From NCBI RefSeq assembly GCF_023705585.1, contig NZ_BOQE01000001.1:2450710-2514709 (forward strand): DNA of 64,000 bases, given 5' to 3'. Shown one piece after another: positions 5,027 through 19,935 of the stretch. Numbering within the stretch: the stretch's first letter is position 1; each line of letters opens with the position of its first letter. This DNA is from Collibacillus ludicampi. Lineage in GTDB: Bacteria > Bacillota > Bacilli > Tumebacillales > BOQE01. Made by a program: the position numbers and the translations under genes. Below the pieces are notes generated by a model. It ran no database searches. It saw nothing but the letters and a program-made list of their open reading frames with translations, and was not told where the DNA came from.

Positions 5027-5338
5027 ATGACCGTTCATGTAACGGAACGTGCAAAAAAATCGCTGGAACACTGGCTGTCTCCGGAGCAACCGGTTGTATA
5101 CTTGCGCGTAATGATGATCATGGAAGGCGGTTGAAGCGCCACGATGACATATGATTTGGTTCTGGATGAACCAAGACCGGATGATGATATTTTCGATTAC
5201 GGCCCCATACATGTGGTCGTAGACCGCGCTTCGCGAATCTATATGGATGACACCGTCACCATCGACTACGATGAGGAAAAAGGCGGGTATGTATTGAAAA
5301 GTCCGAGTCAAATCATCCCGGGGGTATTCAGGTTATAG
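5027..5338 (+). CDS. HesB/IscA-like protein, probable selenoprotein with in-frame TGA (Sec36)
   Basis: One frame runs from the ATG at 5027 (AGGAGGG 8 nt upstream) to TAG 5336-5338, interrupted only by TGA at 5132-5134. Read through, it gives a 103-residue A-type iron-sulfur/HesB fold protein: strand-helix start VTERAKKSLEHWL, the GG-x-SATMTYDLVLDEP motif, then VVVDRASRIYMDD and GGYVLKSP. The TGA sits exactly at the first conserved Cys of the GGCSG motif. The C-terminal CxC of true IscA is absent, as in other HesB-like paralogues. A hairpin 28 nt after the TGA fits a bacterial SECIS. HesB-like selenoproteins are an established family; that this gene is one is inference. The alternative is a nonsense pseudogene, but a mutation landing on the one catalytic Cys with a SECIS behind it would be a striking coincidence. 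The 3' part (from 5161) comes from the integrated element. Confidence 0.75.
5156..5174 (+). promoter_or_regulatory. Candidate bacterial SECIS element
   Basis: A perfect 7-bp stem TTGGTTC / GAACCAA closes a 5-nt loop TGGAT. The apical loop begins 28 nt after the TGA, and its second base is G. Bacterial SECIS elements need a short stem, an apical loop with G in the first two positions, and a UGA-to-loop distance of roughly 16-37 nt; all are met. The stem is coding, so its bases are also constrained by the protein. Confidence 0.6.
5161..5338 (+). repeat. Left direct repeat (attL side), element-borne 3' end of the HesB-like gene
   Basis: It aligns without gaps to 23991-24168. The first roughly 135 bp differ at one base (5203 C versus T), then differences accumulate toward the stop codon (SPSQ versus SPGQ, FRL versus FFL). 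Similarity starts abruptly at 5161, so the crossover should lie near the left edge. The copy next to the integrase is then the element's own and keeps the protein intact. Confidence 0.9.
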
Positions 5339-5456
5339 AAGACGAATGGTAAAGTTCTCTTCGTTAAAAATGGGCAGAACTTTATTACTCGTATACGTGA
5401 ACGTTATCATAATGACTTCCTTCTCCATGTAAAAATGGAAAAAGGAGGTCTTTATT

Positions 5457-6495
5457 TTGGATAAACGAAAAGGTCGTAAGGCAATAAGACAGAGACAAAC
5501 GGTAGTGTATAATAGCCCAAAATACACTTTGGATCAGGCGTTTAATCTTTATACTCACGCCAAAGTGACGGAAGGTTTAAGAGAGAGCACACTCAAAGAT
5601 CACAAAAGAATGTTTGATTATTTTATGCGTTGGCTAGAAAAGTCTCATCATGAAATTCAATATGTGGATGAAATAACTACAAGTCTTTTGCGAGAATATG
5701 TGTATTACATGTTGAACGATCAACAATTATACGAGGGACGAATACACAAACCAAAGGTATCGAAAGTGGGATTAGGTAATCAGACGGTTAATTTACGCAT
5801 TACCAAGCTGAAAGCGTTTTTCAATTTCTTAGTGAATGAAAACATCATATCTGATAATCCTGCGGAAAAAATAAAACGGCTGCGTGTAGAAGAGGATACA
5901 ATCGGAGCATTTACAGATGAGCAAATTGATTTACTGCTTGCGCAACCTGATCGTAGAAATTTTGCTCAGAATCGTGACTACGTATTAATGCGCTTTCTTC
6001 TTGAGTCTGGCTGCCGTATCAATGAGGTCTTATCTCTGAAAATATCGAACATCGATTTTCAAACACGACTTATCACATTGCCCGGATCACAAAATAAGAA
6101 TCGTAGAACGAGAGTCATTCCAATATCAAAAGACATGGTTAGGTTATTGATGGAATTAATCGCAGAAAATAAGACGTATTTTCCTGATACGGAATATGTA
6201 TTTTTAACAAATTACGGTGAACCTATTTCACAAAGAACGATTGGGCGAAAAATTCAAGAGTACGGTAAAAAAGCCGGTATAGCGAATCAGGTGCGTTGTT
6301 CACCGCACACTTTTCGTCATACATTCGCCAAAAACTTCCTTATGGCAGGTGGCGATATTATCGCCTTACAACGCATTCTAGGTCATAGCACAATGGATAT
6401 GGCGCAAATATGTACAGCATACGCCTGATGATTTATTGGCATCGCATGATCGTTACGTCATGAACTTGAAGATGAAACATAAAAAACGCTTATAG
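5457..6495 (+). pseudogene. Tyrosine recombinase/integrase, frameshifted at the catalytic tyrosine
   Basis: TTG start at 5457 behind AAGGAGGT. The N-terminal SAM-like core-binding domain (about 20-130) and catalytic domain are clear: Arg in ESGCRINEVL, HTFRHTF (H-x-x-R) and LGHSTMDMAQI. At about 6407-6412 the frame breaks: the open frame ends in ICTAYA-TGA (stop 6428). Adding two bases (ATAT to ATATAT) gives QIYVQHTPDD and a normal tail ending at 6495. The missing bases fall on the codon for the nucleophilic Tyr. It is either a real inactivation that traps the element or a read error in a TA run. Confidence 0.85.
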
Positions 6496-6523
6496 ATCAT
6501 ATTCACCAGATCATCTCATTATC

Positions 6524-6546
6524 ACCGCCGTTTGGCGGTATTTTTG
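6524..6546 (+). terminator. Intrinsic terminator of the integrase gene
   Basis: ACCGCC (6524-6529) pairs with GGCGGT (6534-6539) around a GTTT loop, followed by A and TTTTT. Confidence 0.85.
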
Positions 6547-6603
6547 CTTTTCAAGCAGGATAATACCCACCTTTACAGCGAATGAATTTGTGAGGTGGGG
6601 TTC

Positions 6604-6795
6604 GTGAAATGTAGGTTAAAGGAGATACTTGAGGAACGTGGCATCAAACAAAAATGGCTATGTGAACGCACTGGTGTTGGAGTTTCACACATGAGTCGAA
6701 TCATAGGTGGAAAGATGATTCCAACACTCGAAGTTGCTTTTAAAATAGCCGCAGCATTAGGATTGACCGTTCATGATATTTGGGAGCCTGATTAG
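6604..6795 (+). CDS. Small Cro/CI-type (XRE) HTH regulator
   Basis: About 63 residues, almost entirely one helix-turn-helix domain: LKEILEERGIKQKWLCERTG then VGVSHMSRIIGGKMIPTLE and an IAAALGLTVHDIWEP closing helix. It probably controls element excision or replication genes. The GTG at 6604 is preferred because the GAGGTGGGG ribosome site overlaps the alternative GTG at 6595. A terminator overlaps the stop codon. Confidence 0.85.
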   Translation: MKCRLKEILEERGIKQKWLCERTGVGVSHMSRIIGGKMIPTLEVAFKIAAALGLTVHDIWEPD

Positions 6796-6804
6796 GCTCT
6801 TTTT
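6784..6804 (+). terminator. Intrinsic terminator after the XRE regulator
   Basis: GAGCCT (6784-6789), GATT loop, AGGCTC (6794-6799), then TTTTT. The stem includes the gene's stop codon. Confidence 0.85.
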
Positions 6805-7028
6805 CATTTGTATGAATTTTTTATTGTATAGACATGCAATTATGGCAAGCACATTGGCGTATACCTTAACCATCATCACGTAACGAATCCCCTTTTCCCT
6901 TTTTCCCACACATTGTACTCGTCCACGCATGTACTTCCCACGTCACACCTGACTTTGCGATGCGGATTCTGATCCTGTTAGATTCAGCGCTGATTCGAGG
7001 CGGATTCAACAAAAGGAGATGATTGTCC

Positions 7029-7235
7029 ATGAACCCGATTTTCTTCTTCAAACTCGAAGAAATGGCACAAAAACTCGTTCAGTATTACATCGATAAGGGG
7101 TACTCTACCGGAAAAGCTGTGCGCCTTGCTCGCGACGTGTTCGACCAAGCGATAAGCAAGTTTTTTGATCTTGGATATGCCGTCGTTCATGATGGATTTC
7201 TTCATATCCTCCAAGCAATTGGGGGTATGTTCTAA
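7029..7235 (+). CDS. Small hypothetical protein, first gene of the FtsK/relaxation cluster
   Basis: 68 residues, mostly amphipathic helix (LEEMAQKLVQYYIDKGYSTG, then ARDVFDQAISKFFDLGYAVV). No family recognised. AGGAG at 7013 is about 11 nt before this ATG; a TTG at 7023 is a second possible start. It is the first of a string of tiny overlapping genes that ends with the FtsK-like ATPase, so it may belong to the same DNA-processing module. Confidence 0.65.
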   Translation: MNPIFFFKLEEMAQKLVQYYIDKGYSTGKAVRLARDVFDQAISKFFDLGYAVVHDGFLHILQAIGGMF

Positions 7236-7354
7236 TGCCTATTTGGCCAGGACTTGTTTTCATCGGTGCGCTTGAAATGCTGAAAGACGAAGCGACAGCA
7301 AATGCGTTTTTTCACGGAGTTGGCTATCTGATTCGCTTGGCTATTGGGGGATGA
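7235..7354 (+). CDS. Tiny hydrophobic protein (39 aa)
   Basis: The ATG overlaps the preceding stop (TAATG), indicating translational coupling. The 39 residues have a hydrophobic start (MPIWPGLVFIGALEML) and end (FFHGVGYLIRLAIGG) flanking a short charged stretch. It could be a membrane or holin-like peptide; no family recognised. Supported by tight packing rather than by similarity. Confidence 0.5.
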   Translation: MPIWPGLVFIGALEMLKDEATANAFFHGVGYLIRLAIGG

Positions 7355-7357
7355 CAC

Positions 7358-7486
7358 ATGAACATCGTCCAAATCATCGGCCTGATACTACTGAGCATGT
7401 CCACCGGTGGATGGATCGAGAACGAGCGAATGACGCGTCAAGTTCACCACCAAGAAGAGGAGGTGTACGGTGATGGGCGCGATTAA
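7358..7486 (+). CDS. Tiny single-TM protein (42 aa)
   Basis: ATG 3 nt after the previous stop. One hydrophobic N-terminal segment (NIVQIIGLILLSMSTGGW) and a charged tail (ENERMTRQVHHQEEE). The tail codes over the ribosome site and start of the next gene (overlap 7473-7486). Function unknown; membrane location is likely. Confidence 0.5.
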   Translation: MNIVQIIGLILLSMSTGGWIENERMTRQVHHQEEEVYGDGRD

Positions 7487-7652
7487 ATATCCTGGCGAAC
7501 CACCGAATCAAAGCATTGTGCTGAATTTGCTTGATATGACAGCGAATCACCAACGTAAAACGATTGTTGTCGTGTTGTTGATTGGTGCGTGGTTCATTTT
7601 CAAGGGTGCGGACATATTAGCTCATTGGGTGGATCGATGGTTTTGGTTCTGA
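7473..7652 (+). CDS. Small single-TM membrane protein (59 aa)
   Basis: ATG at 7473, preceded by AGGAGGTG at about 7458. A polar N-terminus (MGAIKYPGEPPNQS), then one membrane span (TIVVVLLIGAWFIFKGADIL) and an aromatic end (WVDRWFWF). It overlaps the FtsK-like gene downstream by 16 nt, suggesting coupled synthesis and possibly a membrane partner for that ATPase. No family recognised. Confidence 0.6.
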   Translation: MGAIKYPGEPPNQSIVLNLLDMTANHQRKTIVVVLLIGAWFIFKGADILAHWVDRWFWF

Positions 7653-8803
7653 GCGTGAATGAGTATAAGCGACGTGTTGATTACGTTTTGAATCTATGTC
7701 TCAAGCACCCCATAGAAGCCCGCAAATGGCGCTGTGTTGACGTGAAGAAGACGCGATACATGGTTCAACTGACGTATGAGATACCGAGTAAATACTCAGC
7801 GCACGACGTACAAAAGCAGATTGATGCACTTGTGGCGACGTGTGGCGCTGATATCGAAATCGTTGATTATGCTGGCCGGGTTGGTATACGTATCTGCATC
7901 GAAGACTTGCCGAATAAAATCGACGTAGACCACGCCCTAATCGATAAAATGAAGGGTATGGATGTGTTGTTAGGGTATGACCGGAATCGAACTCCCATCA
8001 TCCATACATTCAAGCATCCGCATATGATCATCGCTGGTGAGCCTGGATTCGGAAAAACGGAATTGTTGTTCTTCATCCTTTACCAATGGATCAAGCGCCT
8101 CACACCGAATGACCTCGAAATACACGTTATCGACCTCAAAGGTACATCATTCATCCCATTCATCGGAATCCCTCATCTCCACCCCATCGCAACCGATCTC
8201 GATAAGGCATACGAAACCGTAAAACGAGTGTATGACATCATGATCGACCGACGTGATAAGGTGCTTGAACGAGGTGACAAACAGCTTTTGCGACAACTCG
8301 CACGCAAAAAGCATCTACTCGTTATCGACGAGGCAGGAGTCATAGCACCAAAATTATGGGCCGGTGACGAGAGGAAGACGTGTCAGAAGATCGATGGATA
8401 CTTATCGCAATTGCTCATGGTTGGCCGTGAATTAGGGATACACGTCTTCTATTGCCTACAATACCCGCACAGCGACTATGTGAATCCGCAAATTCGCGCC
8501 TGTGCAGGTGGAAGGCTCTCGTTTCATCTTAGCAAGCCGGAGTTTTCAGAAGTCGTGATAGGCGAACCAGGGGCAGAGAAACTATCCACACCAGGACGTG
8601 CGATATACAAGACGAATAAATCGATTACGATACATGTTCCGTACATGCACGATCTCGAAAAACGTTTGGAGGCGATGAAATGTGACGCGAGAAGAACGAT
8701 GCGAAACGGTGCTACATGCGTTGAAGATAATGCCGATCATGTCCACCGATCAAATCAGTCGTTTCTTTCACTTCGACCGCTACCCGTCCAAACGCGCGAG
8801 TGA
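7637..8803 (+). CDS. FtsK/HerA-type DNA-translocating ATPase
   Basis: 388 residues from the ATG at 7637. Walker A GEPGFGKTE near residue 133 and Walker B HLLVIDEAG near 233; between them IHVIDLKGTSFIPF, typical of FtsK/SpoIIIE and conjugation coupling ATPases. There is no N-terminal membrane anchor, so the small TM proteins just upstream could supply one. In Gram-positive mobile elements an FtsK-like protein commonly sits beside the relaxation or replication protein and moves or loads element DNA. The replication-relaxation gene overlaps its end by 122 nt, showing tight coupling. The exact start is uncertain. Confidence 0.85.
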   Translation: MVLVLSVNEYKRRVDYVLNLCLKHPIEARKWRCVDVKKTRYMVQLTYEIPSKYSAHDVQKQIDALVATCGADIEIVDYAGRVGIRICIEDLPNKIDVDHALIDKMKGMDVLLGYDRNRTPIIHTFKHPHMIIAGEPGFGKTELLFFILYQWIKRLTPNDLEIHVIDLKGTSFIPFIGIPHLHPIATDLDKAYETVKRVYDIMIDRRDKVLERGDKQLLRQLARKKHLLVIDEAGVIAPKLWAGDERKTCQKIDGYLSQLLMVGRELGIHVFYCLQYPHSDYVNPQIRACAGGRLSFHLSKPEFSEVVIGEPGAEKLSTPGRAIYKTNKSITIHVPYMHDLEKRLEAMKCDARRTMRNGATCVEDNADHVHRSNQSFLSLRPLPVQTRE

Positions 8804-9326
8804 GGCGCTTGTGCATTTGCAGCGTGAAAAGTTAGTAGAGGGACAGAGCCGGGCGGTCGGCCAGTACAAGGTTTGGCGCTTGACGAAAAAGGCCCGCGAA
8901 CTTCTCGGCGTTAAAAGGCGTCCTGTTCCGTTTACAGTGCAACTTGATCATTGGCTTGCGCTTGCTGATGCGTACACGACATTGAAATTAGCCGGTGGAT
9001 TGCGCTATTTTATTCCGGAGTTGCGCGAGAAGATACCAGGAACGGATCGGATGTATTGTGGCGACGCATACGTGCATTTTCGTGATATGCAATTTCTGCT
9101 CGAAGTGCAGCGCACGCCTAAATCAAAAGAGGACTGGCGTGAAAAATGGGAACGGTTGCTCGAATGGGATCGCAAGGGAGGAGTTAAGCAAGCGAGTTTT
9201 CAGTGTTTATATAGAGAACCGATCAATCCAAGCGTCGTTGTTGTGACGTCACAAACGTATGATGTGGTGTCAGGCGGATTGATTGTACCGATTACGATAG
9301 TGAAAGATATACGAGAGTTAATATAA
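8682..9326 (+). CDS. Replication-relaxation family protein
   Basis: 214 residues, GTG start behind GGAGG (8668). An N-terminal winged helix (TVLHALKIMPIMSTDQISRF then SKRASEALVHLQREKLV) is followed by a nuclease-like region, YCGDAYVHFRDMQFLLEVQR, with D-x-n-E-V-Q resembling a PD-(D/E)XK core. This layout fits the replication-relaxation family (PF13814) of Gram-positive mobile elements. It overlaps the FtsK-like gene and likely acts on the element origin. The nuclease reading is inference. Confidence 0.75.
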   Translation: MTREERCETVLHALKIMPIMSTDQISRFFHFDRYPSKRASEALVHLQREKLVEGQSRAVGQYKVWRLTKKARELLGVKRRPVPFTVQLDHWLALADAYTTLKLAGGLRYFIPELREKIPGTDRMYCGDAYVHFRDMQFLLEVQRTPKSKEDWREKWERLLEWDRKGGVKQASFQCLYREPINPSVVVVTSQTYDVVSGGLIVPITIVKDIRELI

Positions 9327-9918
9327 TACTCACATTTCTTTAACATAAATTAAGTATTTAGTTGTTACAATTAAATCTGGTATGACGGCATTGCGGGTAA
9401 TCACAGCCATACGGCCCCCGCCACAATCTCCTTAACAATTCAACCGCTCACATATCATCGTGAGCGGCCTTTTTTTACATACATCTATCAGTTAATAAAT
9501 CTTAACAGATAGTCAATGTAGACTATACATTCATCAACTACAATAAGTATGGCGACGACAGTTCAACAACAACTCTCTCCGCTCTTCACATCACGTCAGA
9601 GGCACGCTAAAAATGCGTGTCTCTTCTATTTAACACTTATTTACAGTCCTATTATCGTTAAAGCGCAGTCGTTATGACCGCGCATCATCAGGGGGTAGAA
9701 TGAAACATGTTGCCCAGTGTGCAATGGGGTAAGGGTGATATGTGTACAGTGTACATGACAAATGCGGAATAAGTATGTAATTCGATTTACACAAAATAAA
9801 CAAAACACTCAAGCGTGTGGTCATTGTATAACGGAGGTATATACCAATTGTTCTGGCGGGAACTGATTAAAGCTGCAATCACATTAAAAACCACGCCTAA
9901 AGTGACGTGGTTTGTTTT
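9327..9918. other. Non-coding stretch with hairpins and a short palindrome
   Basis: I see no gene. It holds an intrinsic terminator for the upstream cluster (CCGCTCAC 9444-9451 / GTGAGCGG 9460-9467, then a T run), a second hairpin GAGGCACGC / GCGTGTCTC near 9600-9626 with a T-rich tail, and the operator-like palindrome TGTACA-G-TGTACA at 9743-9755. It could contain a transfer or control site, but nothing proves it. Confidence 0.5.
9444..9478 (+). terminator. Intrinsic terminator after the replication-relaxation gene
   Basis: Perfect 8-bp stem CCGCTCAC / GTGAGCGG with an 8-nt loop, followed by CC and eight Ts. Confidence 0.85.
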
Positions 9919-9919
9919 T
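9889..9919. terminator. Terminator-like hairpin at the end of the lipoprotein gene
   Basis: AACCACG (9889-9895) pairs with CGTGGTT (9906-9912). T runs flank it on both strands, so it can serve the minus-strand lipoprotein gene. Confidence 0.7.
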
Positions 9920-10740
9920 TATTTTGCTGCAGGTACATCAAAAGTGTACGGATTGAAATTAGTTTCGAAATCATCGGTATGTGCGCTGAGAGTGAGTTTC
10001 AATGGTTTATCCGGGGAAAGTCCTTTGAATACAATTACACCACTTGCAGATACTCCAGGCAACAGATCGCTTGGAATCTCTTTGTACGTTTCTTTGGCAT
10101 CAATTTCATGATCACTAATCTTTGAATCCAATTGCTGTCCATCTTGAACTGCTTTAGCTTCAACTACGAAAAAATAAGCTTTATTTTGAGTACCGTTCTT
10201 GATTGTTAAATATACTCTTTGTTCATCCTTTGCAAAATCAATTTTATTTACGGTTAAACTTAGACCGTGTTGATCCAACGTTTTATCGACTTGAAGGCTT
10301 TTGATTGTCGGTGATAGCACACTCAAAGGATCGACTTTCTTCACAGATTCAAGCTGTATTACTGGAGCAGAAATTTTTGCACCAAATGCATTAGTGCCTT
10401 CCATCACACCTTGAACTTTTCCTGTAACTTCTACAAAGTCATTTTCATTGATATCCGCGTTTTTACCGTTGACATTTACGACTACATTATGATCATCAAC
10501 TTGCATTTGAAAAGCGGTCATATCACCAATATTTTTAGTACCGATAAACACTTTGCCTTGCAATGTGGCTTCAGCACCCTTAAACTGATTTGCATCCTGT
10601 AAGAATTGAGCCTTATTTGCTTCCGTAACCTTTGGAGCATTAGAAGAACTAGTTGTTGCGTTACTTCCCCCACAACCTGTCATACTCAGAACAATTGTAG
10701 TAATGATGATTCCTGTTCCTACCTTACCCCATTTTCTCAT
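9919..10740 (-). CDS. Secreted lipoprotein with OB-fold-like and DUF4352-like domains
   Basis: 273 residues from the ATG at 10740 (GGAG 9 nt upstream). A lipoprotein signal peptide with lipobox SMTGC, then a Ser/Thr/Asn-rich linker. Residues about 35-130 look like an OB-fold (FKGAEATLQGKVFIGTKNIG, NENDFVEVTGKVQG), and about 140-270 like the DUF4352 immunoglobulin-like domain (LDQHGLSLTVNKIDF, VYLTIKNGTQNKAYF). It would be anchored on the outer face of the membrane. As element cargo it could act in surface exclusion or attachment, but that is speculation. Confidence 0.8.
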   Translation of the reverse strand: MRKWGKVGTGIIITTIVLSMTGCGGSNATTSSSNAPKVTEANKAQFLQDANQFKGAEATLQGKVFIGTKNIGDMTAFQMQVDDHNVVVNVNGKNADINENDFVEVTGKVQGVMEGTNAFGAKISAPVIQLESVKKVDPLSVLSPTIKSLQVDKTLDQHGLSLTVNKIDFAKDEQRVYLTIKNGTQNKAYFFVVEAKAVQDGQQLDSKISDHEIDAKETYKEIPSDLLPGVSASGVIVFKGLSPDKPLKLTLSAHTDDFETNFNPYTFDVPAAK

Positions 10741-10887
10741 TACAACCAACTCCTTATAATATGTAGAGAAATAAAATAACAAACAGATAAGTTAGATAGT
10801 TATGGATATTATACTATATTTTTCATTCAGTTATTAAAAAATTGTCGTTGTTTCAATATCAACAACACTTTTTTAAGCCAAAAATTA

Positions 10888-10914
10888 ACCACTCACGTTC
10901 GGTATGCGAGTGGT
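10888..10914 (-). terminator. Hairpin terminator downstream of the small-protein pair
   Basis: ACCACTC / GAGTGGT, 7-bp stem. On the minus strand it is followed by a T-rich stretch, placing it at the end of the 10934-11410 genes. Confidence 0.6.
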
Positions 10915-10933
10915 CATTATTTATAACTTTAAA

Positions 10934-11173
10934 TTAGATGTGATCAAAACTTATACTCGACAACATATTTCCTACAAAGTGCACCAATTTTTTTGTATTT
11001 TGGACGTGAGTGTCAGGCACATTGCTATCCGCTGCGAGTTCATAATACACCTCAAACGTCTGGACGAAAAGTTCGGCCAATTCGGCATAGTGAAGCAATC
11101 TCGTATCGTTCCGTAATTGAGGATCGACTTGTCCAATTGGCTGGATAAGTTCGTCGTTGTAATGGATGTTCAT
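10934..11173 (-). CDS. Small hypothetical protein, paralogue of its neighbour
   Basis: 79 residues; ATG at 11173 with AAGGAG 8 nt upstream. It shares the pattern NDE-I-x(6)-P-L-R-D...E-LA...Y-x-ELAAD-N...K-LV with the gene at 11189-11410, so the two arose by tandem duplication. Helical, acidic and soluble; no known family. Probably co-transcribed with the upstream copy. Confidence 0.65.
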   Translation of the reverse strand: MNIHYNDELIQPIGQVDPQLRNDTRLLHYAELAELFVQTFEVYYELAADSNVPDTHVQNTKKLVHFVGNMLSSISFDHI

Positions 11174-11188
11174 TATCACCACTCCTTC

Positions 11189-11410
11189 TTATATGGCTGT
11201 AGTCGCGCGGCCTACGGTTTTCGCAATACGCTCAACAAGTCTCTTCACGTGTAAAACAGAGTTGTCATCATTGCAATCAGCGGCTAGTTCAAGGTATGTG
11301 TTATACGAGTCCACCAAAATAGATGCAAGCTCCACACATCGATCTAGTTTGTCGTCTCTGCGAAGATTAGGTTCTGCTTGTCCGATCCATTCGTCGTTCA
11401 CCCGAATCAT
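11189..11410 (-). CDS. Small hypothetical protein, paralogue of 10934-11173
   Basis: 73 residues from the ATG at 11410, chosen because it aligns with the start of its paralogue and GGGG lies upstream; a longer frame begins at 11500. Conserved features: IRVNDEWIGQ, RDDKLDRCVELA, TYLELAADCN and VKRLVERI. The promoter region faces the divergent XRE gene at 11597, which may control both. Function unknown. Confidence 0.65.
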   Translation of the reverse strand: MIRVNDEWIGQAEPNLRRDDKLDRCVELASILVDSYNTYLELAADCNDDNSVLHVKRLVERIAKTVGRATTAI

Positions 11411-11463
11411 ACACGCACACCCCCATAGATCGTTTAGTTTTATAAATATTAGATTTAGTTTTC

Positions 11464-11532
11464 TAAACATATGATACAACTTGCTAATTATGCTAGTCAA
11501 GCAAAAAGTTTATTATTGCGAACATATGTTTA
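11464..11532. promoter_or_regulatory. Inverted operator-like pair between divergent genes
   Basis: TAAACATATG (11464-11473) and its exact reverse complement CATATGTTTA (11523-11532) lie 49 nt apart in the AT-rich gap. The right copy overlaps the -35 of the XRE gene, a plausible binding site for that small regulator. Confidence 0.45.
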
Positions 11533-11557
11533 CTTTGTTAAACTAAATGTTTATGAT
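11529..11557 (+). promoter_or_regulatory. Sigma-A-type promoter of the XRE gene
   Basis: TTTACT (11529-11534), 17-bp spacer, TATGAT (11552-11557), about 40 nt before the ATG. Confidence 0.55.
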
Positions 11558-11596
11558 ATTGTATTGATGGGAATCAACAAATGAGGGGTTGATTAT

Positions 11597-11806
11597 ATGT
11601 TTTCATATGCTCCATTGGCCGCAACATTACACAAAAAAGGGATTAGCCGAACAGAATTGAAAAGGATGATAGGGGCATCTTCTGCAACTATTGCTAAGAT
11701 CGCCAAGGATGAACCGGTTTCAATGAAGGTCTTAGATGATATATGTACAGCGCTGGAATGTGAGATACAAGACGTGATACAGCACGTGAAAACTAAAGAA
11801 CAATAA
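11597..11806 (+). CDS. Small XRE/YozG-like HTH regulator
   Basis: 69 residues made of one HTH_26-type domain: LAATLHKKGISRTELKRMIG, ASSATIAKIAKDEPVSMKVL, DDICTALECEIQDVI. GAGGGG precedes the ATG. It is divergent from the paralogous small-protein pair and probably represses its own promoter region, where an inverted repeat lies. Confidence 0.85.
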   Translation: MFSYAPLAATLHKKGISRTELKRMIGASSATIAKIAKDEPVSMKVLDDICTALECEIQDVIQHVKTKEQ

Positions 11807-11820
11807 ACGAGAGGGGAAAC

Positions 11821-11847
11821 GGTGTCACACAAGTGGCACCTTTATTT
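11821..11847 (+). terminator. Intrinsic terminator after the XRE gene
   Basis: GGTGTCAC (11821-11828), ACAA loop, GTGGCACC (11833-11840; one G-T pair), then TTTATTTATT. Confidence 0.8.
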
Positions 11848-12366
11848 ATTGGGTGAATTTGGTAATATATGGTAATTGTGATTGGACAAATCCGTACGAA
11901 ATCGCCGACATTTATAACTCACAAAATGCCGGAAATCCCAGTTGTGGCGCGGTTTCTCGGGTTTTTGGTGGTGCGTGAGTGTCCAATCGACTTTTTTCCG
12001 AAATCGGAAAATACTTTTTCGCGAGAATAGGAGAAGTCTCCTTCTTTAAGAAGGAGAGTTTTGCGCAACGTAAAAGAATACTCGAACACGTTGATCGTTG
12101 ATGTGACGCGGTTTTTGAGCGATTACGTGTTACGCCAGCGTAACATGATTGTGTATGTGGTGGATAGGGGTGTAAGTTCAAGTTACACCCTTTTTGTTTG
12201 GTGGATATGGAGTAATGTTTCGCACAAAAGTGTGTAAAAGCGAAACTCTGCCGCCCGCTCGAACGGTTGCGCCAGAACCTCCGCACATGAAAAAGACGTG
12301 ACCACTCGATCACGCCTTCTTTATAGGGTTAGGACGTATAGGATACACGAATATTTTATCACAAAT
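11848..12366. other. Hairpin-dense non-coding region
   Basis: No convincing gene. Dyads include GATTGGACA (11880-11888) with TGTCCAATC (11980-11988), TTTTCCGA-AA-TCGGAAAA (about 11993-12010), CTCCTTCTT-T-AAGAAGGAG (about 12037-12056), TGTTACGC-CA-GCGTAACA (12128-12145), and a terminator-like hairpin GGTGTAA...TTACACC with a T run near 12169-12195. Such density suits a transfer or single-strand origin, a res site for the adjacent serine recombinase, or a small RNA. Confidence 0.45.
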
Positions 12367-12921
12367 TCACGCCTGCCGTTCCTTCAACGCTCGATACAAC
12401 GTTGCTTTTGTAACGCCGGTCATTTCGGTTATTTCTGATACAGTATATTGCTGCGTGTCGTACAACTTTATTGCCTTCTCGATCTTCTTTTGATCCGTTT
12501 TCGGTCGGCCACCAACACGCCCACGTGCTCGTGCTGCTTCTAATCCCGCTTTGGTACGTTCGATAATGACATTTCGTTCAAATTCAGCAAATACCGCAAG
12601 CATACCAAACAATGCTTTTCCCGCAGCTGTCGTTGTATCAATCTTGTCATTCAAGCTCACAAATTCCGCGCCTTTTTTCTGAATCTCGTCCAATGTCATG
12701 ATGAGTTTTACTGTAGAACGTGCAAGTCGATCTAGTTTGTAGACGACTAATATATCACCTTCTCTAAGATTATCTAATGCACGCTCCAACTCTGGTCTAT
12801 CGTCCTTTGCACCGCTCTCCTTCTCTGTATAGATGCGCTCACATCCTGCCTCTTTTAACGCATCGATTTGCATATCCAATGATTGATCGACCGTTGATAC
12901 CCGCGCATATCCGATTCTCAT
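12367..12921 (-). CDS. Small serine recombinase (resolvase/invertase family)
   Basis: 184 residues with the full resolvase layout: catalytic Ser9 in GYARVS, LDRLARS, the E-helix MLAVFAEFERNVIIERTKAG, and a C-terminal HTH (YTVSEITEMTGVTKATLYRA). It probably resolves multimers of the excised element or inverts a segment; the hairpin-rich gap directly downstream may contain its site. A tyrosine integrase handles chromosomal insertion, so a resolution role is more likely. GGAGACGG precedes the ATG on the minus strand. Confidence 0.92.
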   Translation of the reverse strand: MRIGYARVSTVDQSLDMQIDALKEAGCERIYTEKESGAKDDRPELERALDNLREGDILVVYKLDRLARSTVKLIMTLDEIQKKGAEFVSLNDKIDTTTAAGKALFGMLAVFAEFERNVIIERTKAGLEAARARGRVGGRPKTDQKKIEKAIKLYDTQQYTVSEITEMTGVTKATLYRALKERQA

Positions 12922-13417
12922 ATGTACCGTCTCCTTTACAATTGGTTCGCTTAACCATATTGTATCATAAACGTACTTTTTTGCAACATAGATTTTGAGA
13001 CGGGTTTTGGAACGGATTTTAAGCGAGAGAACCGCATAATTTGATGTGTCTCAGAAACGTGTCATATACGATGGTTTTTGAAACGATAAAATGTACGTAT
13101 CGTGCGTGATAAGATCATTCGTTTCGTGTGTAGTAGGGTGGACTGTTCATCATCGTCCCTGTAGCCTGCCCATTCGTCCTGTTTATGTTGATTATCCCGA
13201 TGCGAATATGAGACATTACAGAAAAAATGTGTTTCGCCGTGAAACACGCGCACAAGCCTATCCAGGCGATAAATTTATGTATCACAACATCACTTCCAAA
13301 TTTTTACACATCAAACTTATACATGCGCTACCGATTTTCAAATCACCAATATATCGTATATACTATTTTTATTATTATATATTTTTTGAAAAAACGATGA
13401 AACGGGAGGGATGGATA
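12922..13417. other. AT-rich non-coding region upstream of the small-gene trio
   Basis: I see no gene. It has a perfect hairpin GTGTTTC-GCCGT-GAAACAC at 13229-13247, and very AT-rich DNA at 13350-13395 just before the 13418 gene that probably holds its promoter. One frame stays open across part of it (13091-13417), but it has no ribosome site and unlikely composition. Confidence 0.4.
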
Positions 13418-13573
13418 ATGGTTGCAGAAGATGATGATTTTATTATCACATACGGAGAAAGTGATGAACCGTACGATGAAGAAAAATTACGACGCGCATT
13501 AGAGTTCGTGTTACAAATAATGATGGAATATTATGAAAAGAAGAAGGGCAATGAATCGGAGGGGCTGAAATGA
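13418..13573 (+). CDS. Small acidic protein (51 aa), first of a tandem paralogous pair
   Basis: ATG at 13418 behind GGGAGG. Starts EDDDFIITYGESDEPYDEEK and continues with helix RRALEFVLQIMMEYYEKKKG. The next gene repeats the pattern ED-x-FII...S-x(6)-EKxRRA-E...M-EYEK. The stop overlaps the next start (ATGA). No known family. Confidence 0.7.
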   Translation: MVAEDDDFIITYGESDEPYDEEKLRRALEFVLQIMMEYYEKKKGNESEGLK

Positions 13574-13722
13574 TCGTGGAAGACGGGGAGTTTATTATAG
13601 AGTTCGTAAGGAGCGAGGATCAGTCTGAAGAAAAAAAGAGACGAGCAATAGAATGTGCATTTGAAATGATAATGGAGATTTACGAAAAGTATGAAACTAA
13701 GGAAAAATCCAATAGGAGTTGA
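13570..13722 (+). CDS. Small acidic protein (50 aa), second paralogue
   Basis: The ATG overlaps the previous stop, giving translational coupling. The sequence (IVEDGEFIIEFVRSEDQSEE, then RRAIECAFEMIMEIYEKY) is clearly a diverged copy of the preceding protein. Function unknown; the pair may form a heterodimer. Confidence 0.68.
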   Translation: MIVEDGEFIIEFVRSEDQSEEKKRRAIECAFEMIMEIYEKYETKEKSNRS

Positions 13723-13727
13723 GTGAA

Positions 13728-13913
13728 ATGGCGGCTAAACGGGGAAGAAAATCACATGATTTTAAGATAATAGAAATATCTGGAAGTGATAAATCATTCG
13801 ATGAACTATGTATGGAAAACAAATGGTTATTCGAGCTTACATTGGCATATGCACGGAAATTGAAGAGTGATAAGCATAACAACGGAGATGAAGAAAAGAA
13901 AACCGACTCGTGA
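13728..13913 (+). CDS. Small hypothetical protein (61 aa)
   Basis: ATG at 13728, AGGAG 10 nt upstream, 5 nt after the previous gene. Basic start (MAAKRGRKSHDFKIIE) and a helix (ELCMENKWLFELTLAYARKL). No family recognised. The terminator begins inside its last codons. Confidence 0.65.
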   Translation: MAAKRGRKSHDFKIIEISGSDKSFDELCMENKWLFELTLAYARKLKSDKHNNGDEEKKTDS

Positions 13914-13927
13914 AGTCGGCTTTTTTT
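13903..13927 (+). terminator. Intrinsic terminator of the small-gene trio
   Basis: CCGACT (13903-13908), CGTGA loop, AGTCGG (13914-13919), then C and seven Ts. Confidence 0.85.
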
Positions 13928-13929
13928 GC

Positions 13930-14541
13930 TTATTCAACTACTCCGTGCTTGTTGATTCTCAATCGTTTTCGCTCATCGTCATTGATTCCAGCTACATTTT
14001 TACGTGCGATATTGAAGACCTCCAAGAACTTGTCGCGTTCGGCCTTCACTTCTTCATATTCACGATGCAACTTTTCCAATTGCCTCTTCAATTCATCGCG
14101 TTCACGAGTCACTTCGTCCAATTGTTTCTGTAGCCGTTCTGCATTCGAATCGACGATCTCAACGTTGCGCAAGAAACGAATCAATTCTCGCTGAGTCATT
14201 CGGATCGGTTCATCAGGATCATCTTTTTGTTGTCTTGATACGATAGGCAAATTGCGATTAATTTTGATACGCCTACGTTCTTCTAATGTACGATTCGCTC
14301 GTGCTTGTGCTCCTTGTGCTTTTGCAATTTCGTATTGTGCCGCGTATTTTTCACTGAGGATCGTGTTCCACTTTAGTCGGCAACTGGCCACTGATCTGAG
14401 TCCATTGCTCTCCTCAGAGAACTTTTCACACGCCTCCGTTACTGTACCGCCAGAAGCGACCGTTTCAAGCACCACTTCGGCCAAACGGTCAAACTCTTCT
14501 TCCGTCCAATCTACACGAGGGCCGCCTGGATTACCTGCCAT
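13930..14541 (-). CDS. RsfA-like regulator (Myb-like domain plus coiled coil) carried on the element
   Basis: 203 residues. The N-terminal Myb/SANT-like helix set (DWTEEEFDRLAEVVLETVAS, TEACEKFSE, SCRLKWNTILSEKY) is followed by a long coiled coil (about 120-180: VDSNAERLQKQLDEVTRERD and onward). This is the layout of RsfA/YlbO prespore regulators, like the chromosomal gene at 41945-42562. GGGAG precedes the ATG. On a mobile element it may link element behaviour to sporulation, or simply regulate element genes. Confidence 0.75.
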   Translation of the reverse strand: MAGNPGGPRVDWTEEEFDRLAEVVLETVASGGTVTEACEKFSEESNGLRSVASCRLKWNTILSEKYAAQYEIAKAQGAQARANRTLEERRRIKINRNLPIVSRQQKDDPDEPIRMTQRELIRFLRNVEIVDSNAERLQKQLDEVTRERDELKRQLEKLHREYEEVKAERDKFLEVFNIARKNVAGINDDERKRLRINKHGVVE

Positions 14542-14710
14542 GTATTATACACTCCCGTTTAGGTTTTATATCTATTGTACCAAACTATATCACGATAATA
14601 AACACCTATCAATTATATCAAAATATATTATTGACTAAATGATATTATTGATATAGTATAAAGACAGGGACATGATACGAAAAAATTCGAAGGGAAAGGC
14701 GGTAACGTTA

Positions 14711-15043
14711 ATGTCAAACATACGTTTTAATCAAATCGAGGAGCAGTTTAAACAACTCGAAAAGCAAATGGCTTATTACGAATATTGCCGTCAAAAAACT
14801 ATAGAGGACTTAGAACGAAGAAAAAAAGCATTCAAAGATCCTGAATGTCAAAAGATATATCACCAGCTCATTGAATATTGCGGCGGTGAAAAAGTTGTAC
14901 GACCAGGTATAAGGGGGCGTGCAAAACAGTTGGCCATAAATTGCTTCTTAAAAAACCACCCCCCTGATTTTGATGCTTTCTTTGAGTCTGTAAAAATAGC
15001 AAACGAAAAAATCAAAAAATACAAAAAACAAAAAGTTAAGTAA
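14711..15043 (+). CDS. Hypothetical coiled-coil protein
   Basis: 110 residues from the ATG at 14711 (upstream frame open from 14672). An N-terminal coiled coil (QIEEQFKQLEKQMAYYEYCR), two Cys-containing helices (YHQLIEYCGGEKVV) and a Lys-rich tail (KKYKKQKVK) suggest DNA or RNA binding. It precedes the sigma-like gene by 15 nt. No family recognised. Confidence 0.6.
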   Translation: MSNIRFNQIEEQFKQLEKQMAYYEYCRQKTIEDLERRKKAFKDPECQKIYHQLIEYCGGEKVVRPGIRGRAKQLAINCFLKNHPPDFDAFFESVKIANEKIKKYKKQKVK

Positions 15044-15058
15044 AAGGAAGGTGAAACT

Positions 15059-15832
15059 GTGGCTCAGGAATACGTATTTTCAAAAGGTTATGAGCAAGCA
15101 AGAGCACAATTCAGGCGTTACGTTACAACAATGCGAAAAATGGTCGTGGAACGCAAAAAACAGAATAATCCTGTGCCACTCCGCGAACGCAAGCGTATGA
15201 TTGAGGCATTAATCGACGCATGGGATCAAGCGTTTATCGATTACAAGGTTAAGGTATGGCCGCCACGATATTGGCTCGATGTACTATATGAGGTGCTTGA
15301 TTACAACTACGCTGGTAGTAGAAATCCTAGAAAGCTCGGTCAAAAGAACGCGTACCAAACTATACGTCAAGAAGAGCGTATGTATGAAACAATATATCCC
15401 TACAACCCACGATACATAAGTAGCCCTCTAGAATCACCTGATGACGATGAAATGAACTATGACGATGAAGACGATGAAAAATTAGTTCCTGCGTATGCGC
15501 AACGAATGGGATTGTTTAAATTCAACTATTCATCAATTGATCCTCGCTCGATAGAGAAATATTCATGTGAATCAATCGTCATCGTACTCGAACACTATGA
15601 CGAACTCAATTACAGAGCTATCTGGCGCGGTGATCATGTTGCTCTGGATATCCTGATCGATATTCGGAACGCACTTCAACAACTAACCGTAAAGCAACGT
15701 CTGTGTCTGGAATTGCACTATCTGCACGATTACACGTTTGTTGATATTGCAAAGAAATTGGGAGTGAGTGACGAGGCAGTACGTAAAAACACTGATGCAG
15801 CGATAAGAAAAATGTCCAAAATATTAAATTGA
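15059..15832 (+). CDS. Sigma-70 region 4-like transcription factor (phage late-activator type)
   Basis: 257 residues, GTG start behind GGAAGG. The last 60 residues are a clear sigma region 4 HTH: LTVKQRLCLELHYLHDYTFV, DIAKKLGVSDEAVRKNTDAA. The N-terminal part has no sigma region 2, only helices and an acidic linker, as in ArpU/Xpf-type phage late regulators. It probably activates the downstream block ending in the primase and tape-measure genes. No other sigma-like gene is seen on the element. Confidence 0.75.
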   Translation: MAQEYVFSKGYEQARAQFRRYVTTMRKMVVERKKQNNPVPLRERKRMIEALIDAWDQAFIDYKVKVWPPRYWLDVLYEVLDYNYAGSRNPRKLGQKNAYQTIRQEERMYETIYPYNPRYISSPLESPDDDEMNYDDEDDEKLVPAYAQRMGLFKFNYSSIDPRSIEKYSCESIVIVLEHYDELNYRAIWRGDHVALDILIDIRNALQQLTVKQRLCLELHYLHDYTFVDIAKKLGVSDEAVRKNTDAAIRKMSKILN

Positions 15833-16076
15833 TACTTTATATTATATGTTAATTATGGTATAATAAAAAATTTTATTAAATATAGGTTGGTTTTAGCGCG
15901 AATAAGTGGACTAATATATAGGCGCAGGTCATCCATGCGCTACCACTCCATACCTTTCTCTTTGTCGTATGTAGCTTGTCTATATACGGAAAATAGGGTC
16001 GCGTCTCGTCAACGCGGGCTCTTATTTTTTCGGAGGTTTGTTAACACTGTCTACATCTTGAAAGGGGGTGATTCAA

Positions 16077-16301
16077 ATGCAAATCCAGCCAGAAACCTTT
16101 CGCTTTCTCAGACAGATGCTTGGAATAAGCGTTCGTGAATTTGCGAAAGCGGTTGGATACAGTCACAGTTACGTTGCGATGATCGAAACAGGGGAACGTC
16201 GTATGAGTGAAGAAGCACGCCGTCGATTTTTGAAGTTTTACATTGACTTTATCGACGCTGCTATGGATTGGCAACATGATTATTCAACTATTTCGAATTA
16301 A
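16077..16301 (+). CDS. XRE-family HTH regulator
   Basis: 74 residues. HTH with FRFLRQMLGISVREFAKAVG, YSHSYVAMIETGERRMSEEA and a helical end (RRFLKFYIDFIDAAMDW). The ATG at 16077 sits 9 nt after AAGGGGG; an in-frame GTG at 16068 overlaps that site. It heads a tightly spaced run of genes up to the primase. The 244 nt before it hold only a weak CGCGT/ACGCG terminator hairpin. Confidence 0.82.
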   Translation: MQIQPETFRFLRQMLGISVREFAKAVGYSHSYVAMIETGERRMSEEARRRFLKFYIDFIDAAMDWQHDYSTISN

Positions 16302-16314
16302 AGGAGAGATGATT

Positions 16315-16641
16315 ATGACTGATAAGGAATTTGCACAAAAACAATTGCTCAAAAAGCTCATTGAAACTGCAGACGAGTATCGGAAGCTAACACGCGAAAT
16401 CGAGGAGCTGAAAAAGACAACTCACTCAAAGTCTAGCACCACAAACGAACACATGGCTGACAAGATCGTTGAGAACGTGTCGAACTGGCAACGTGACCAG
16501 CAGTTGATGACGCGCTCGTTCCAGGGATATACCTTGGCAAAAGAAGAGCCGGTCAACGAATACATCACAAAAATGACGTTCGTAAAATCCGAATTTCACT
16601 CCAACAAAGCGGCGGCGCTTGATAAACCATGGAAGATTTAG
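16315..16641 (+). CDS. Hypothetical coiled-coil protein
   Basis: 108 residues from the ATG at 16315 behind AAGGAGAG. An N-terminal coiled coil (KKLIETADEYRKLTREIEEL), a linker rich in Ser/Thr and a C-terminal region (RSFQGYTLAKEEPVNEYITK). Possibly a DNA-replication accessory protein by position. No family recognised. Confidence 0.65.
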   Translation: MTDKEFAQKQLLKKLIETADEYRKLTREIEELKKTTHSKSSTTNEHMADKIVENVSNWQRDQQLMTRSFQGYTLAKEEPVNEYITKMTFVKSEFHSNKAAALDKPWKI

Positions 16642-16659
16642 AGACGGAGGGAATGAACA

Positions 16660-16998
16660 ATGAAAGTATATATGCATCGACCATACACCAAGCTTCCAAT
16701 GGATGAAAACAGGTACTATACCCTTTATTACAACGGCAAACAAATTAAGTTCTATTGCATCAACGATAATACAGTTCAGGTCGAAGAACTTGAACACATT
16801 CAAGCGCTGCTGGATCAAGGATTTATCGTAACGCATATCGATCCATACGACACAACTGGAACTCAATACCGGCTAATCAATCTCAGATCGCTTTCATTTT
16901 CACGTGACGAAGACGCCGAAGCATTGTTGCGTGAATTAGCCGACTGGAAACTAATCGGCGTACGTCAACTTCAAGCGCTCTATTACAAGGAGGGATGA
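16660..16998 (+). CDS. Hypothetical protein upstream of the primase
   Basis: 112 residues; GGAGGGAA before ATG. Mixed alpha/beta with many aromatic residues (YYTLYYNGKQIKFYCI) and a C-terminal helix (DAEALLRELADWKLIGVRQL). Spaced 5 nt from the next gene. No family recognised. Confidence 0.65.
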   Translation: MKVYMHRPYTKLPMDENRYYTLYYNGKQIKFYCINDNTVQVEELEHIQALLDQGFIVTHIDPYDTTGTQYRLINLRSLSFSRDEDAEALLRELADWKLIGVRQLQALYYKEG

Positions 16999-17003
16999 TA
17001 TAG

Positions 17004-17321
17004 ATGCAAGTAGTTTTACGAAACCAAGAACTTGCAGGTATGTGCGTTGCTTGGCATGGTACTTATCCATTCGACGCGAACGGGGTGGTGACGTGCTCGC
17101 ATTTGGATGACATTGTGATGCTGGTTAAAGAGAAAGGATGCAAACCAATCCAAATCGTTGATGGAGGCGATGAGAAGATGAATTATCATATGGTGGATTT
17201 CGACAAGGTATTGAAACAAGGCGATGATCATTTACTGGAAGAGCTGAAAAGGCTGCACAATGAACACTGGAAGCCGTTTATCGCGAAAGATAAGGTTGTA
17301 TTGTTCTTTAAACAAGGCTGA
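17004..17321 (+). CDS. Hypothetical protein before the primase gene
   Basis: 105 residues; GGAGGG precedes the ATG. Has WHGTYPFDANGVVTCSHLDD and an acidic helix (DDHLLEELKRLHNEHW). No family recognised. A strong terminator follows, so the primase has its own promoter or depends on read-through. Confidence 0.65.
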   Translation: MQVVLRNQELAGMCVAWHGTYPFDANGVVTCSHLDDIVMLVKEKGCKPIQIVDGGDEKMNYHMVDFDKVLKQGDDHLLEELKRLHNEHWKPFIAKDKVVLFFKQG

Positions 17322-17342
17322 TCCTTCGCGATCAGCTTTTCT
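17317..17342 (+). terminator. Intrinsic terminator before the primase gene
   Basis: GCTGATC (17317-17323), CTTCGC loop, GATCAGC (17330-17336), TTTTCTC. Confidence 0.85.
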
Positions 17343-17369
17343 CTACTACATACGACGGGAGGGAGAAGG

Positions 17370-18830
17370 ATGGAGGCAAACAAAAAACACTCTATGCCAG
17401 AAGAGTGTTTAGATGATGCGAACTATTCATTTAAAAATATTATAATACAAATCGAGCCGATTGTAAAGGCGTTTCACCTATCAGACGTAGGAAATGCTGA
17501 GCGTTTAGCATACTATCATGGCGATAAATTGCGATACTGTCATAGCACTGGCAAATGGCTGTACTGGACAGGCAAACGGTGGCAAATAGATAGTGGGGGA
17601 ACAGAAGTGTATCGTCTGGCCAAAGAAACGGTGCGGAATATCTACCGTGAAGCTGCATTGACTGACGATACTGATACACGTCAAAAGATCTCTAAACATG
17701 CGATTCAATCAGAGAAAGCATCATCAATTCGAGAAATGATTGCGTTGGCGCAAAATGAAGGAGATATACCAATCCACGCCTATGAATTAGACGCGGATCA
17801 ATGGCTATTGAACGTAGAGAACGGAACAATCGACTTGCGCACAGGCAAATTAAGACCGCATTCACGCAAGGACTTGATCACCAAACTCGTTCATACGGAG
17901 TACGATCCAAACGCACAATGTCCGACATGGGAAGCGTTTTTGTGGCGCATCATGAACGGGAACCAGGAATTGATACGTTTCCTACAGAAAGCGGTCGGTT
18001 ATGCGCTCACCGGTGACGTATCTGAACAGGTTATGTTTTTCCTATACGGATACACCGGCAAAAACGGCAAATCCACGTTCCTGAACACGATACGCGAATT
18101 GTTGGACGACTACTCAATCACCATGCAGCCAGACTCGTTCATGGTCAAGCAATCGGATCGCATCTCAAACGATATCGCACGTCTCAAAGGGGTACGTTTC
18201 GTATCCACTATCGAGGGTGAAGAGGGAAAACGTTTGGCCGAATCACTCATCAAGCAATTAACCGGCGGCGATACCATTTCAGCGCGATTCCTGCACCGTG
18301 AATACTTCGATTTCAAACCTACGCACAAGATATTTTTCGCAACCAATCACAAACCGTCGATTCGTGGAACGGACGATGCAATCTGGCGTCGTATTCGCTT
18401 GATACCGTTCGATGTAATAATTCCAGAGCACGAACGCGATCCTAAACTACCGGAAAAATTACGCGCTGAATGGTCAGGTATATTGCGTTGGGCCGTGGAA
18501 GGGTGCTTGCTGTGGCAACGCGAGGGGTTAGGTGTTCCTGGCGCAGTGGTCGAAGCAACGCAAGAATATCGCGAAGAAATGGACGTTATCGGCGCGTTTT
18601 TGGCTGATAAATGCGTCATCGGATCGGGTTATAAAACGCATTCGTCCGAACTGTACGAGGAATACAAAACGTGGTGCGCTGATAATGGCGAATACCAAAT
18701 GACGCAATCAATGTTTGGACGAAAGTTGAAAGAACGGGGATTCGAGAACGTTAAATCTAATGGATATAAAGTTTGGAAAGATATCGGCTTAGCACGAAAT
18801 ATACCCGTCCCCTTTGCGCGTATATCGTAG
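17370..18830 (+). CDS. P4/D5-family primase-helicase (replication protein)
   Basis: 486 residues; GGAGGGAG before ATG. The region 90-210 matches D5_N (DADQWLLNVENGTIDLRTGK). The SF3-type helicase follows: Walker A GYTGKNGKST near 228-237, EGEEG as the Walker B region, and sensor/Arg-finger block FFATNHKPSIRGTDDAIWRR. A C-terminal winged helix (SMFGRKLKERGFENVKSNGY) closes it. The N-terminal prim-pol domain of full P4 alpha proteins is missing, so it is a helicase/initiator that needs another primase. Iteron-like repeats begin on its stop codon, pointing to origin binding nearby. Confidence 0.9.
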   Translation: MEANKKHSMPEECLDDANYSFKNIIIQIEPIVKAFHLSDVGNAERLAYYHGDKLRYCHSTGKWLYWTGKRWQIDSGGTEVYRLAKETVRNIYREAALTDDTDTRQKISKHAIQSEKASSIREMIALAQNEGDIPIHAYELDADQWLLNVENGTIDLRTGKLRPHSRKDLITKLVHTEYDPNAQCPTWEAFLWRIMNGNQELIRFLQKAVGYALTGDVSEQVMFFLYGYTGKNGKSTFLNTIRELLDDYSITMQPDSFMVKQSDRISNDIARLKGVRFVSTIEGEEGKRLAESLIKQLTGGDTISARFLHREYFDFKPTHKIFFATNHKPSIRGTDDAIWRRIRLIPFDVIIPEHERDPKLPEKLRAEWSGILRWAVEGCLLWQREGLGVPGAVVEATQEYREEMDVIGAFLADKCVIGSGYKTHSSELYEEYKTWCADNGEYQMTQSMFGRKLKERGFENVKSNGYKVWKDIGLARNIPVPFARIS

Positions 18831-18955
18831 GGACAGTTTCAGGGACACAGGGATGGTTTGATCGCATTTTTCCCTTTTTCTCTATAAATTTTTTATTTGT
18901 ATATGAAAAACGGAAATTTTAATCCAAACTGTCCCTATCGTCCCTAAACCATCCC
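18830..18955. other. Candidate replication origin: inverted iteron clusters around an AT-rich core
   Basis: The left cluster has GGGACAGTTT (18830-18839), AGGGACAC (18841-18848) and GGGATGGTTT (18850-18859). The right cluster has the same boxes on the other strand: AAACTGTCCC (18926-18935), CGTCCCT (18939-18945) and AAACCATCCC (18946-18955). Between them lie about 65 bp rich in A and T with T and A tracts. Repeats plus AT-rich core next to the initiator gene is the usual origin layout. Confidence 0.6.
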
Positions 18956-19020
18956 CTATTCACACGTCGCTCAATATTGGGCGGCTTATTTATTTTCGTG
19001 CGTGGATTGGAGGTGATTTA

Positions 19021-19245
19021 ATGCGCAACGAAATCTGGCGATTGAATAGTGATTATCTCGCAGCCTACACAGAAGATCCCGATGTATGGCGTAAAATCAA
19101 ACGATCATACGGATTCAAAGTGATGGCTGAATACTACCGCAACGGAAAACTGTTCGCGATGCAATATGTCGTACCGAACGAGAAGAAACGTTCCATTCGT
19201 CATCTTCTCGGCGTGAATGTGACGTGCGATAAAACGGCTGTGTAG
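19021..19245 (+). CDS. Small hypothetical protein (74 aa)
   Basis: ATG behind GGAGGTG. Basic, with WRLNSDYLAAYTEDPDVWRK and IKRSYGFKVMAEYYRNGKLF; it looks like a small nucleic-acid-associated protein. No family recognised. Two perfect small hairpins follow (GGTAAT-TAT-ATTACC and CCCCGT...ACGGGG, 19254-19294). Confidence 0.65.
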   Translation: MRNEIWRLNSDYLAAYTEDPDVWRKIKRSYGFKVMAEYYRNGKLFAMQYVVPNEKKRSIRHLLGVNVTCDKTAV

Positions 19246-19347
19246 TTTAGGTAAGGTAATTATATTACCCCCGTTTGAAAAATCGCTCTACGGGGCTGAT
19301 TTCGCGAAAATCGTACCAAATATGCACTATTTTATCGACGTGGAGAG

Positions 19348-19614
19348 ATGCTTGTGCGTATTGCGCTTGCGGTGAAGCTGAGTACCGTCAATGACGCTCA
19401 CGTTGCATTGATTCGCCTGGTGGAATTGGGGAGCGGTTGGGTGATATCCGAAATGTGTCGCACATTCAGATGTCCGATAAGTTTCGCATATCGACGTGCT
19501 ATTGAATCGGGAATGGCCGAGGCGAGATTGTTGGGTGTTGAGCGCTTGCTAGTGGACGTGACGACAGACGAGCATCCTGAACTCGAAACGCTCGGCGTTG
19601 AACGTCTCGCTTGA
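19348..19614 (+). CDS. Hypothetical protein (88 aa) upstream of the tape-measure gene
   Basis: ATG at 19348 or GTG at 19354 (GGAGAG is better spaced for the GTG). Two repeats of LLGVERL / TLGVERL at the C-terminus and a central helix pair (VISEMCRTFRCPISFAYRRA) that could be an HTH. Its position fits a tail-assembly gene, but there is no sequence proof. Confidence 0.55.
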   Translation: MLVRIALAVKLSTVNDAHVALIRLVELGSGWVISEMCRTFRCPISFAYRRAIESGMAEARLLGVERLLVDVTTDEHPELETLGVERLA

Positions 19615-19648
19615 AAGGGGGTGATGTACAACGGTCATTCGCTATCAG

Positions 19649-19930: not shown

Positions 19931-19935
19931 TATAG

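Follow-up and report, generated by a model that had tools for sequence, protein, structure and literature searches.

tRNA genes are favoured sites of integration, and one explanation is that RNA function keeps their palindromes constant, offering integrases a dependable target. Genomic islands commonly restore their target genes, protein genes in some cases (PMC12884075), and in Islander attP sites centred on the anticodon form a main class (PMC4383910). In such Islander-type elements of the anticodon arm the integrase lies at attL, the gene is split and rebuilt from the element, a displaced 3′ fragment is left, and the repeat runs from the loop of a palindromic arm. All of these features recur in an element described here from Collibacillus ludicampi, within a stretch of 64,000 nucleotides (the window, meaning that whole stretch). 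The palindrome in the window differs, however, in being the predicted selenocysteine recoding signal (SECIS) of a protein-coding gene, and in having 9 rather than 7 nt between GGT and ACC.

Elements at tRNA-Sec in related bacteria also share a selenocysteine-related locus, a related integrase (36-46% identical) and restoration of the gene with the element in the window, but their target is a tRNA gene rather than a recoding signal, and they are not its sister group. The described HesB-like selenoprotein family (PMC1794560) resembles the invaded gene in being HesB/IscA-like, with selenocysteine and a downstream SECIS; unlike that family, the protein in the window falls below the curated cut-off of NF038090 (IscA_HesB_Se; 43.3 against 85 bits), and the accessible part of that paper describes no mobile element. 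A first-pass annotation of this DNA knew of no described element that targets a selenocysteine recoding site, and our literature search likewise returned none, a weak result as most subscription journals lay outside the search.

The selenoprotein gene and its hairpin

The invaded gene (5027-5338, + strand) has its ATG at 5027 and its TAG stop at 5336-5338, and encodes 103 amino acids when TGA is translated as U. It matches PF01521 over cut-off (E=5e-15) and misses that of NF038090, and is therefore filed only as HesB/IscA-like. The in-frame UGA codon (5132-5134, + strand), in the motif GGU, lies on the host side of the junction described below, and homologues with one in-frame TGA are present in related genomes.

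Downstream of the UGA lies the candidate SECIS hairpin TTGGTTC-TGGAT-GAACCAA (5156-5174, + strand), identified by its fold, by covariation and as the strongest dyad. As a 27-nt RNA it folds with -8.7 kcal/mol (z = -2.86); 21 nt separate the end of the UGA at 5134 from the start of the stem at 5156, and the loop, UGGAU, has a G early in it. The stem, with a TGGAT or TGGAC loop, recurs equally far from the UGA in 15 UGA-bearing genes (that of the window and 14 homologues), whereas the cysteine homologues checked likewise (such as L086, L089, L094 and L031) lack this arrangement. The five inner pairs hold almost throughout the 13 distinct sequences, three of which, including the one in the window, exchange T-A for C-G. 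The covariation score across these 13 is 0.199 against 0.137 when shuffled (0 of 500), a modest support, as these bases also code for the conserved LDEP motif and RNA and protein constraints overlap. In a longer sequence context the energy model prefers another pairing; the comparative data favour the simple hairpin. The genome also encodes tRNA-Sec and a full SelB (391 bits, over cut-off). A true SECIS is thus the very probable identity of this hairpin.

About 1.7 kb before the window lies another HesB-like gene (G000:C1:2448781-2449038, locus L046) whose reading frame contains a TGA (VPGUGG). Its TGA is followed by a hairpin, TTGACTC-TGGAT-GAGTCAA, with the same loop as that of the first gene. 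Elsewhere, a hesB selenoprotein gene (L028, G002:C85:173905-174009) is broken directly after the UGA and continues into unrelated repetitive sequence, which probably reflects gene decay rather than an element.

The repeat boundary and the integrated element

A repeat search of the window gave two direct copies of 169 nt on the + strand, at 5161-5329 (the attL side) and 23991-24159 (the attR side), which are identical at 164 of 169 positions (97%); all five differing bases fall in codons 59 and 94-96. When the two ends are aligned, identity begins at T5161; the base before it is T (5160) at the left end and A (23990) at the other. The palindrome is laid out as TTGGTTC at 5156-5162, the loop TGGAT at 5163-5167 and GAACCAA at 5168-5174. 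The alignment thus bears out the first-pass annotation, which had placed the start of the shared repeat at 5161, two bases before the SECIS loop; this edge is inside the hairpin and 28 nt after the in-frame UGA. It also precedes by 1 nt the seven central bases of the palindrome (5162-5168), the probable recombination core. Within the 312-nt gene the hairpin is the strongest inverted repeat, and 10% of shuffled genes hold an equally good one somewhere.

The arms of the hairpin had been assigned, left to the host and right to the element. This holds for 5156-5160, the only unambiguously host part of the left arm; the last two bases of that arm (TC) are within the shared repeat, and the element probably supplied the right arm, depending on the position of the crossover. 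The element would likewise have supplied the left copy, which spans the loop, the right arm and the gene's 3′ part, and with it the bases of the gene after about 5161. The right copy encodes amino acids 43-102 only, lacks the start region and the UGA, and would be the 3′ part that the host gene had originally, now displaced. At this far end TTATATC precedes TGGAT (23986-23992), as previously read, and the sequence ahead of the right copy is unrelated to the left flank. This arm, earlier described as degraded, is normal: it is the element's own attP arm, and the sequence ahead of the repeat at that end differs too in 12 of 12 elements at cysteine HesB/IscA genes and in the sharp-edged tRNA elements discussed below.

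Repeat spacing and gene content define a phage-like element at 5161-23990, a span of 18,830 bp from the start of one repeat copy to the start of the other. A tyrosine recombinase (integrase) gene adjoins its left end (5457-6428, + strand; PF00589, E=3e-35). This is followed by genes for an FtsK/SpoIIIE-like protein (7589-8803, + strand; PF01580, phrog_1358), a Replication-relaxation family protein (8682-9326, + strand; PF13814), a serine resolvase/invertase (12367-12921, - strand; PF00239, E=8e-49) and a D5-type primase/helicase (17370-18830, + strand; PF08706; phrog_1829, E=5e-149). Matches to tail tape-measure proteins (phrog_28, phrog_58) cover 19936-22400 (+ strand) in two ORFs, 19936-21693 and 21741-22400, probably a split gene, and a sigma-like gene also lies within the element. 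With direct repeats, one of which completes the target gene, and an integrase gene at its end, the element has the features of gene-restoring tyrosine-recombinase elements. Its cargo other than the integrase is hardly shared with related elements.

The integrase itself is not intact in the frame found in the window, which ends in LGHSTMDMAQICTAYA, ahead of the catalytic Tyr as placed by alignment with a relative (L134); relatives end in RKYVQ or RRYIQ. The element is therefore predicted to be grounded, and not mobile today, unless the frame breaks are sequencing errors or another enzyme acts. After the break, a remainder resembling the integrase C-terminus continues in another frame (6380-6480). 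The leader of the integrase gene (5397-5460) has a 78%-identical copy at G000:C1:3872813-3872876, where no related integrase lies; a second integrase at 3,872,813 was rejected, the only nearby tblastn match being an XerD-like gene about 10 kb away.

Integrase relatives and their target genes

The closest integrases found, 55-58% identical, lie directly after tRNA-Cys (G235, G401, G403) or tRNA-Ser (G403). The enzyme in the window forms one clade with these three tRNA-Cys integrases and one tRNA-Ser integrase (support 100/99), and is their sister, which gives it the kinship of the A-type group. It does not share their anticodon-arm attachment site: there is no tRNA in the window, and the site lies in a protein gene. 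Rfam likewise gave no match in the window or beside the integrases without a tRNA neighbour. More distant integrases occur at tRNA-Sec, -Arg, -Val, -Pro, -Ser and -Leu.

Five of these tRNA elements have sharp repeat edges, which fall 0-4 nt before the 7-nt anticodon loop: 3 nt for Cys (G235), 0 for Sec (G152), 3 and 4 for Arg (G302 and G153) and 0 for Val (G094). In these relatives the repeat extends from the loop of the hairpin through to the gene's 3′ end. It had been proposed that the hairpin in the window may itself be the recombinase core, and the same geometry in all five lends this indirect support. Several other related elements give uninformative edges: in three tRNA-Sec elements the repeat edges lie 7-11 nt out, and in G010, G012, G011 and G401 the repeat covers most or all of the tRNA; the repeats of the remaining elements are degenerate or very short, or none was found. 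GGT...ACC, the ending of the anticodon stems at the Cys, Sec, Arg and Ser sites, is shared by the SECIS. The spacing is 7 nt in the tRNA arms against 9 nt here, so that the register of the half-sites may differ, and a core motif common to all targets was dropped for this reason.

Twelve related integrases, 37-43% identical, lie directly after cysteine HesB/IscA genes (L135-L139, L143-L148 and L154, with L192-L203). All 12 genomes hold a truncated 3′ copy of that gene, in 11 of them 13-37 kb further along the same contig; most of the elements are 13-18 kb, and their hosts belong to the same class of bacteria. We found no paper describing them. They resemble the element in the window in having a related integrase and a restored gene, and mostly in size. 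They differ in having integrases of a separate clade (97/95 and 95/93), largely unrelated cargo and no selenocysteine or SECIS; in 11 of 12 the shared sequence starts at codons 85-88, whereas the junction in the window falls at the place of codon 45. HesB/IscA genes have thus been targets of the integrase family on at least two occasions, at different positions and once without a SECIS, which weakens the case for a selenium-specific mechanism. That both targets belong to this gene family is probably coincidence, or due to some other property of these genes.

Together, these comparisons make it likely that an integrase of the anticodon-arm type was retargeted onto the SECIS palindrome, which it would use as a DNA site and without any mechanism specific to selenium. 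In the model that we propose, a phage-like element would have entered the HesB/IscA-like selenoprotein gene by tyrosine-recombinase recombination within the SECIS-forming palindrome. The inverted repeat in the DNA would provide a pair of core half-sites that flank a short overlap, the role that the anticodon arm would have for the nearest integrase relatives. Because the element would bring its own copy of the gene from loop through stop codon, integration would rebuild the SECIS unchanged and the gene in full, with the host's displaced 3′ part remaining at the far end. The SECIS would thus serve as a DNA site held constant by strong constraint, and selenium recoding would be unaltered. We infer the exact crossover bases, from geometry, as well as half-site binding and a change of target away from a tRNA gene. 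HesB protein and profile searches of 14, 399 and 398 partly overlapping genomes gave this one instance of a SECIS target, and searches of viral contigs, phages, plasmids and the 398 further genomes for another element at a SECIS gave none; with one instance there is no independent second junction. On balance, we lean towards the wider view that the recoding signal serves as an attachment site, onto which an integrase of an anticodon-arm lineage has moved, which suggests that the DNA of conserved RNA hairpins in general, beyond tRNA genes alone, forms a pool of sites between which integrases can hop.

Among the side observations on tRNA targets are two partial tRNA-Sec copies, at G000:C1:2912346-2912422 (- strand) and 3293460-3293502 (+ strand) (loci L121 and L122), with mutually similar downstream sequence. 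They look like relics of past elements targeted to tRNA-Sec, one of them inverted relative to the intact tRNA-Sec at 2920584.

Effect on the gene and alternative readings

The empty site was reconstructed by joining the left flank to the right repeat copy, and encodes MTVHV...GGUSATMTYDLVLDEP...SPGQIIPGVFFL-stop; under the proposed model an empty site in other strains would read ...TTTGGTTCTGGATGAACCAAG... and then continue into a 3′ part like that of the right copy, which has GGA at codon 94 and ends in TTT TTG TAA. The integrated left end and the rejoined site are identical to position 5200, 40 nt past the junction, and have an identical fold, so that integration rebuilds both hairpin and gene. 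Each encodes a full selenoprotein, and the two proteins differ only at residues 94 and 102. The copies themselves differ at codons 59, 94, 95 and 96 inside the repeat and at codons 102-104 beyond its end. Most of these differences are silent, which fits an element copy picked up from another, still functional gene. The first-pass annotation had suggested that integration or excision could turn the SECIS, and hence the selenoprotein, on or off, as the position of the junction inside the hairpin and the broken hairpin at attR might indicate. On the identity of the integrated and rejoined sites we reject this: both have the hairpin and give a complete protein, with no difference in product between the states beyond the two residues, attR lacks the UGA and the 5′ part, and the integrase frame has no catalytic Tyr. 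As the element carries a copy of the rest of the gene, the recoding signal is rebuilt and not switched off, and we give a recoding switch next to no probability.

Ordinary gene restoration with the true crossover elsewhere in the repeat, the edge in the hairpin being a coincidence, is unlikely but deserves more weight. A nearly identical repeat of 169 nt leaves room for many sites, and its sequence alone would be compatible with a crossover further right, and the site at cysteine HesB genes in relatives is near codon 88 rather than at the hairpin. A single random boundary would fall 0-4 nt before the central 7 nt for 5 of about 282 starts, and so would come this near the loop in about 2% of cases. 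Against this, the repeat in the window starts at the strongest palindrome of the gene, and the sharp-edged relatives show repeats with the same course, from hairpin loop to 3′ end. The twelve integrases that follow cysteine HesB/IscA genes, with the 3′ ends of those genes duplicated, could suggest that the lineage targets this gene family as such and that the SECIS is incidental. This is highly improbable, and we reject common targeting by descent, given that the clade of these integrases is supported and separate from the integrase in the window and that 11 of 12 edges are at codons 85-88 and not at the place of codon 45. To an integrase lineage specialised in selenocysteine loci, both tRNA-Sec and SECIS, and tracking hosts that make selenoproteins, we assign a very small probability indeed. 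Five related integrases in the tree are at tRNA-Sec and that of the window is at a SECIS, but the tRNA-Sec integrases are scattered over the tree (three changes) and are not its sister group. The sister clade is at tRNA-Cys and tRNA-Ser, so that direct ancestry from tRNA-Sec-targeting elements is rejected; four members of the clade in the window's branch are thus already at non-selenium sites, and others are at Arg, Val, Pro, Leu and HesB-Cys.

If the integrase did move onto the SECIS palindrome, the SECIS would be a second, independent kind of constrained RNA palindrome used as a target, and an integrase at such a site with sister enzymes at anticodon arms supports the explanation by constrained palindromes, which can be tested with a few related integrases. 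The rebuilding of the SECIS of the invaded gene resembles the rebuilding of invaded tRNA genes by other elements. There is also a warning for annotators: a UGA-bearing selenoprotein gene whose 3′ part was brought by an element is easily called as two pseudogenes.

Outside the element, the window also holds a 78-nt direct repeat (32944-33021 and 35077-35154, 90% identical), each copy of which has an inverted repeat around AGTACACTTAAAGTGTA.
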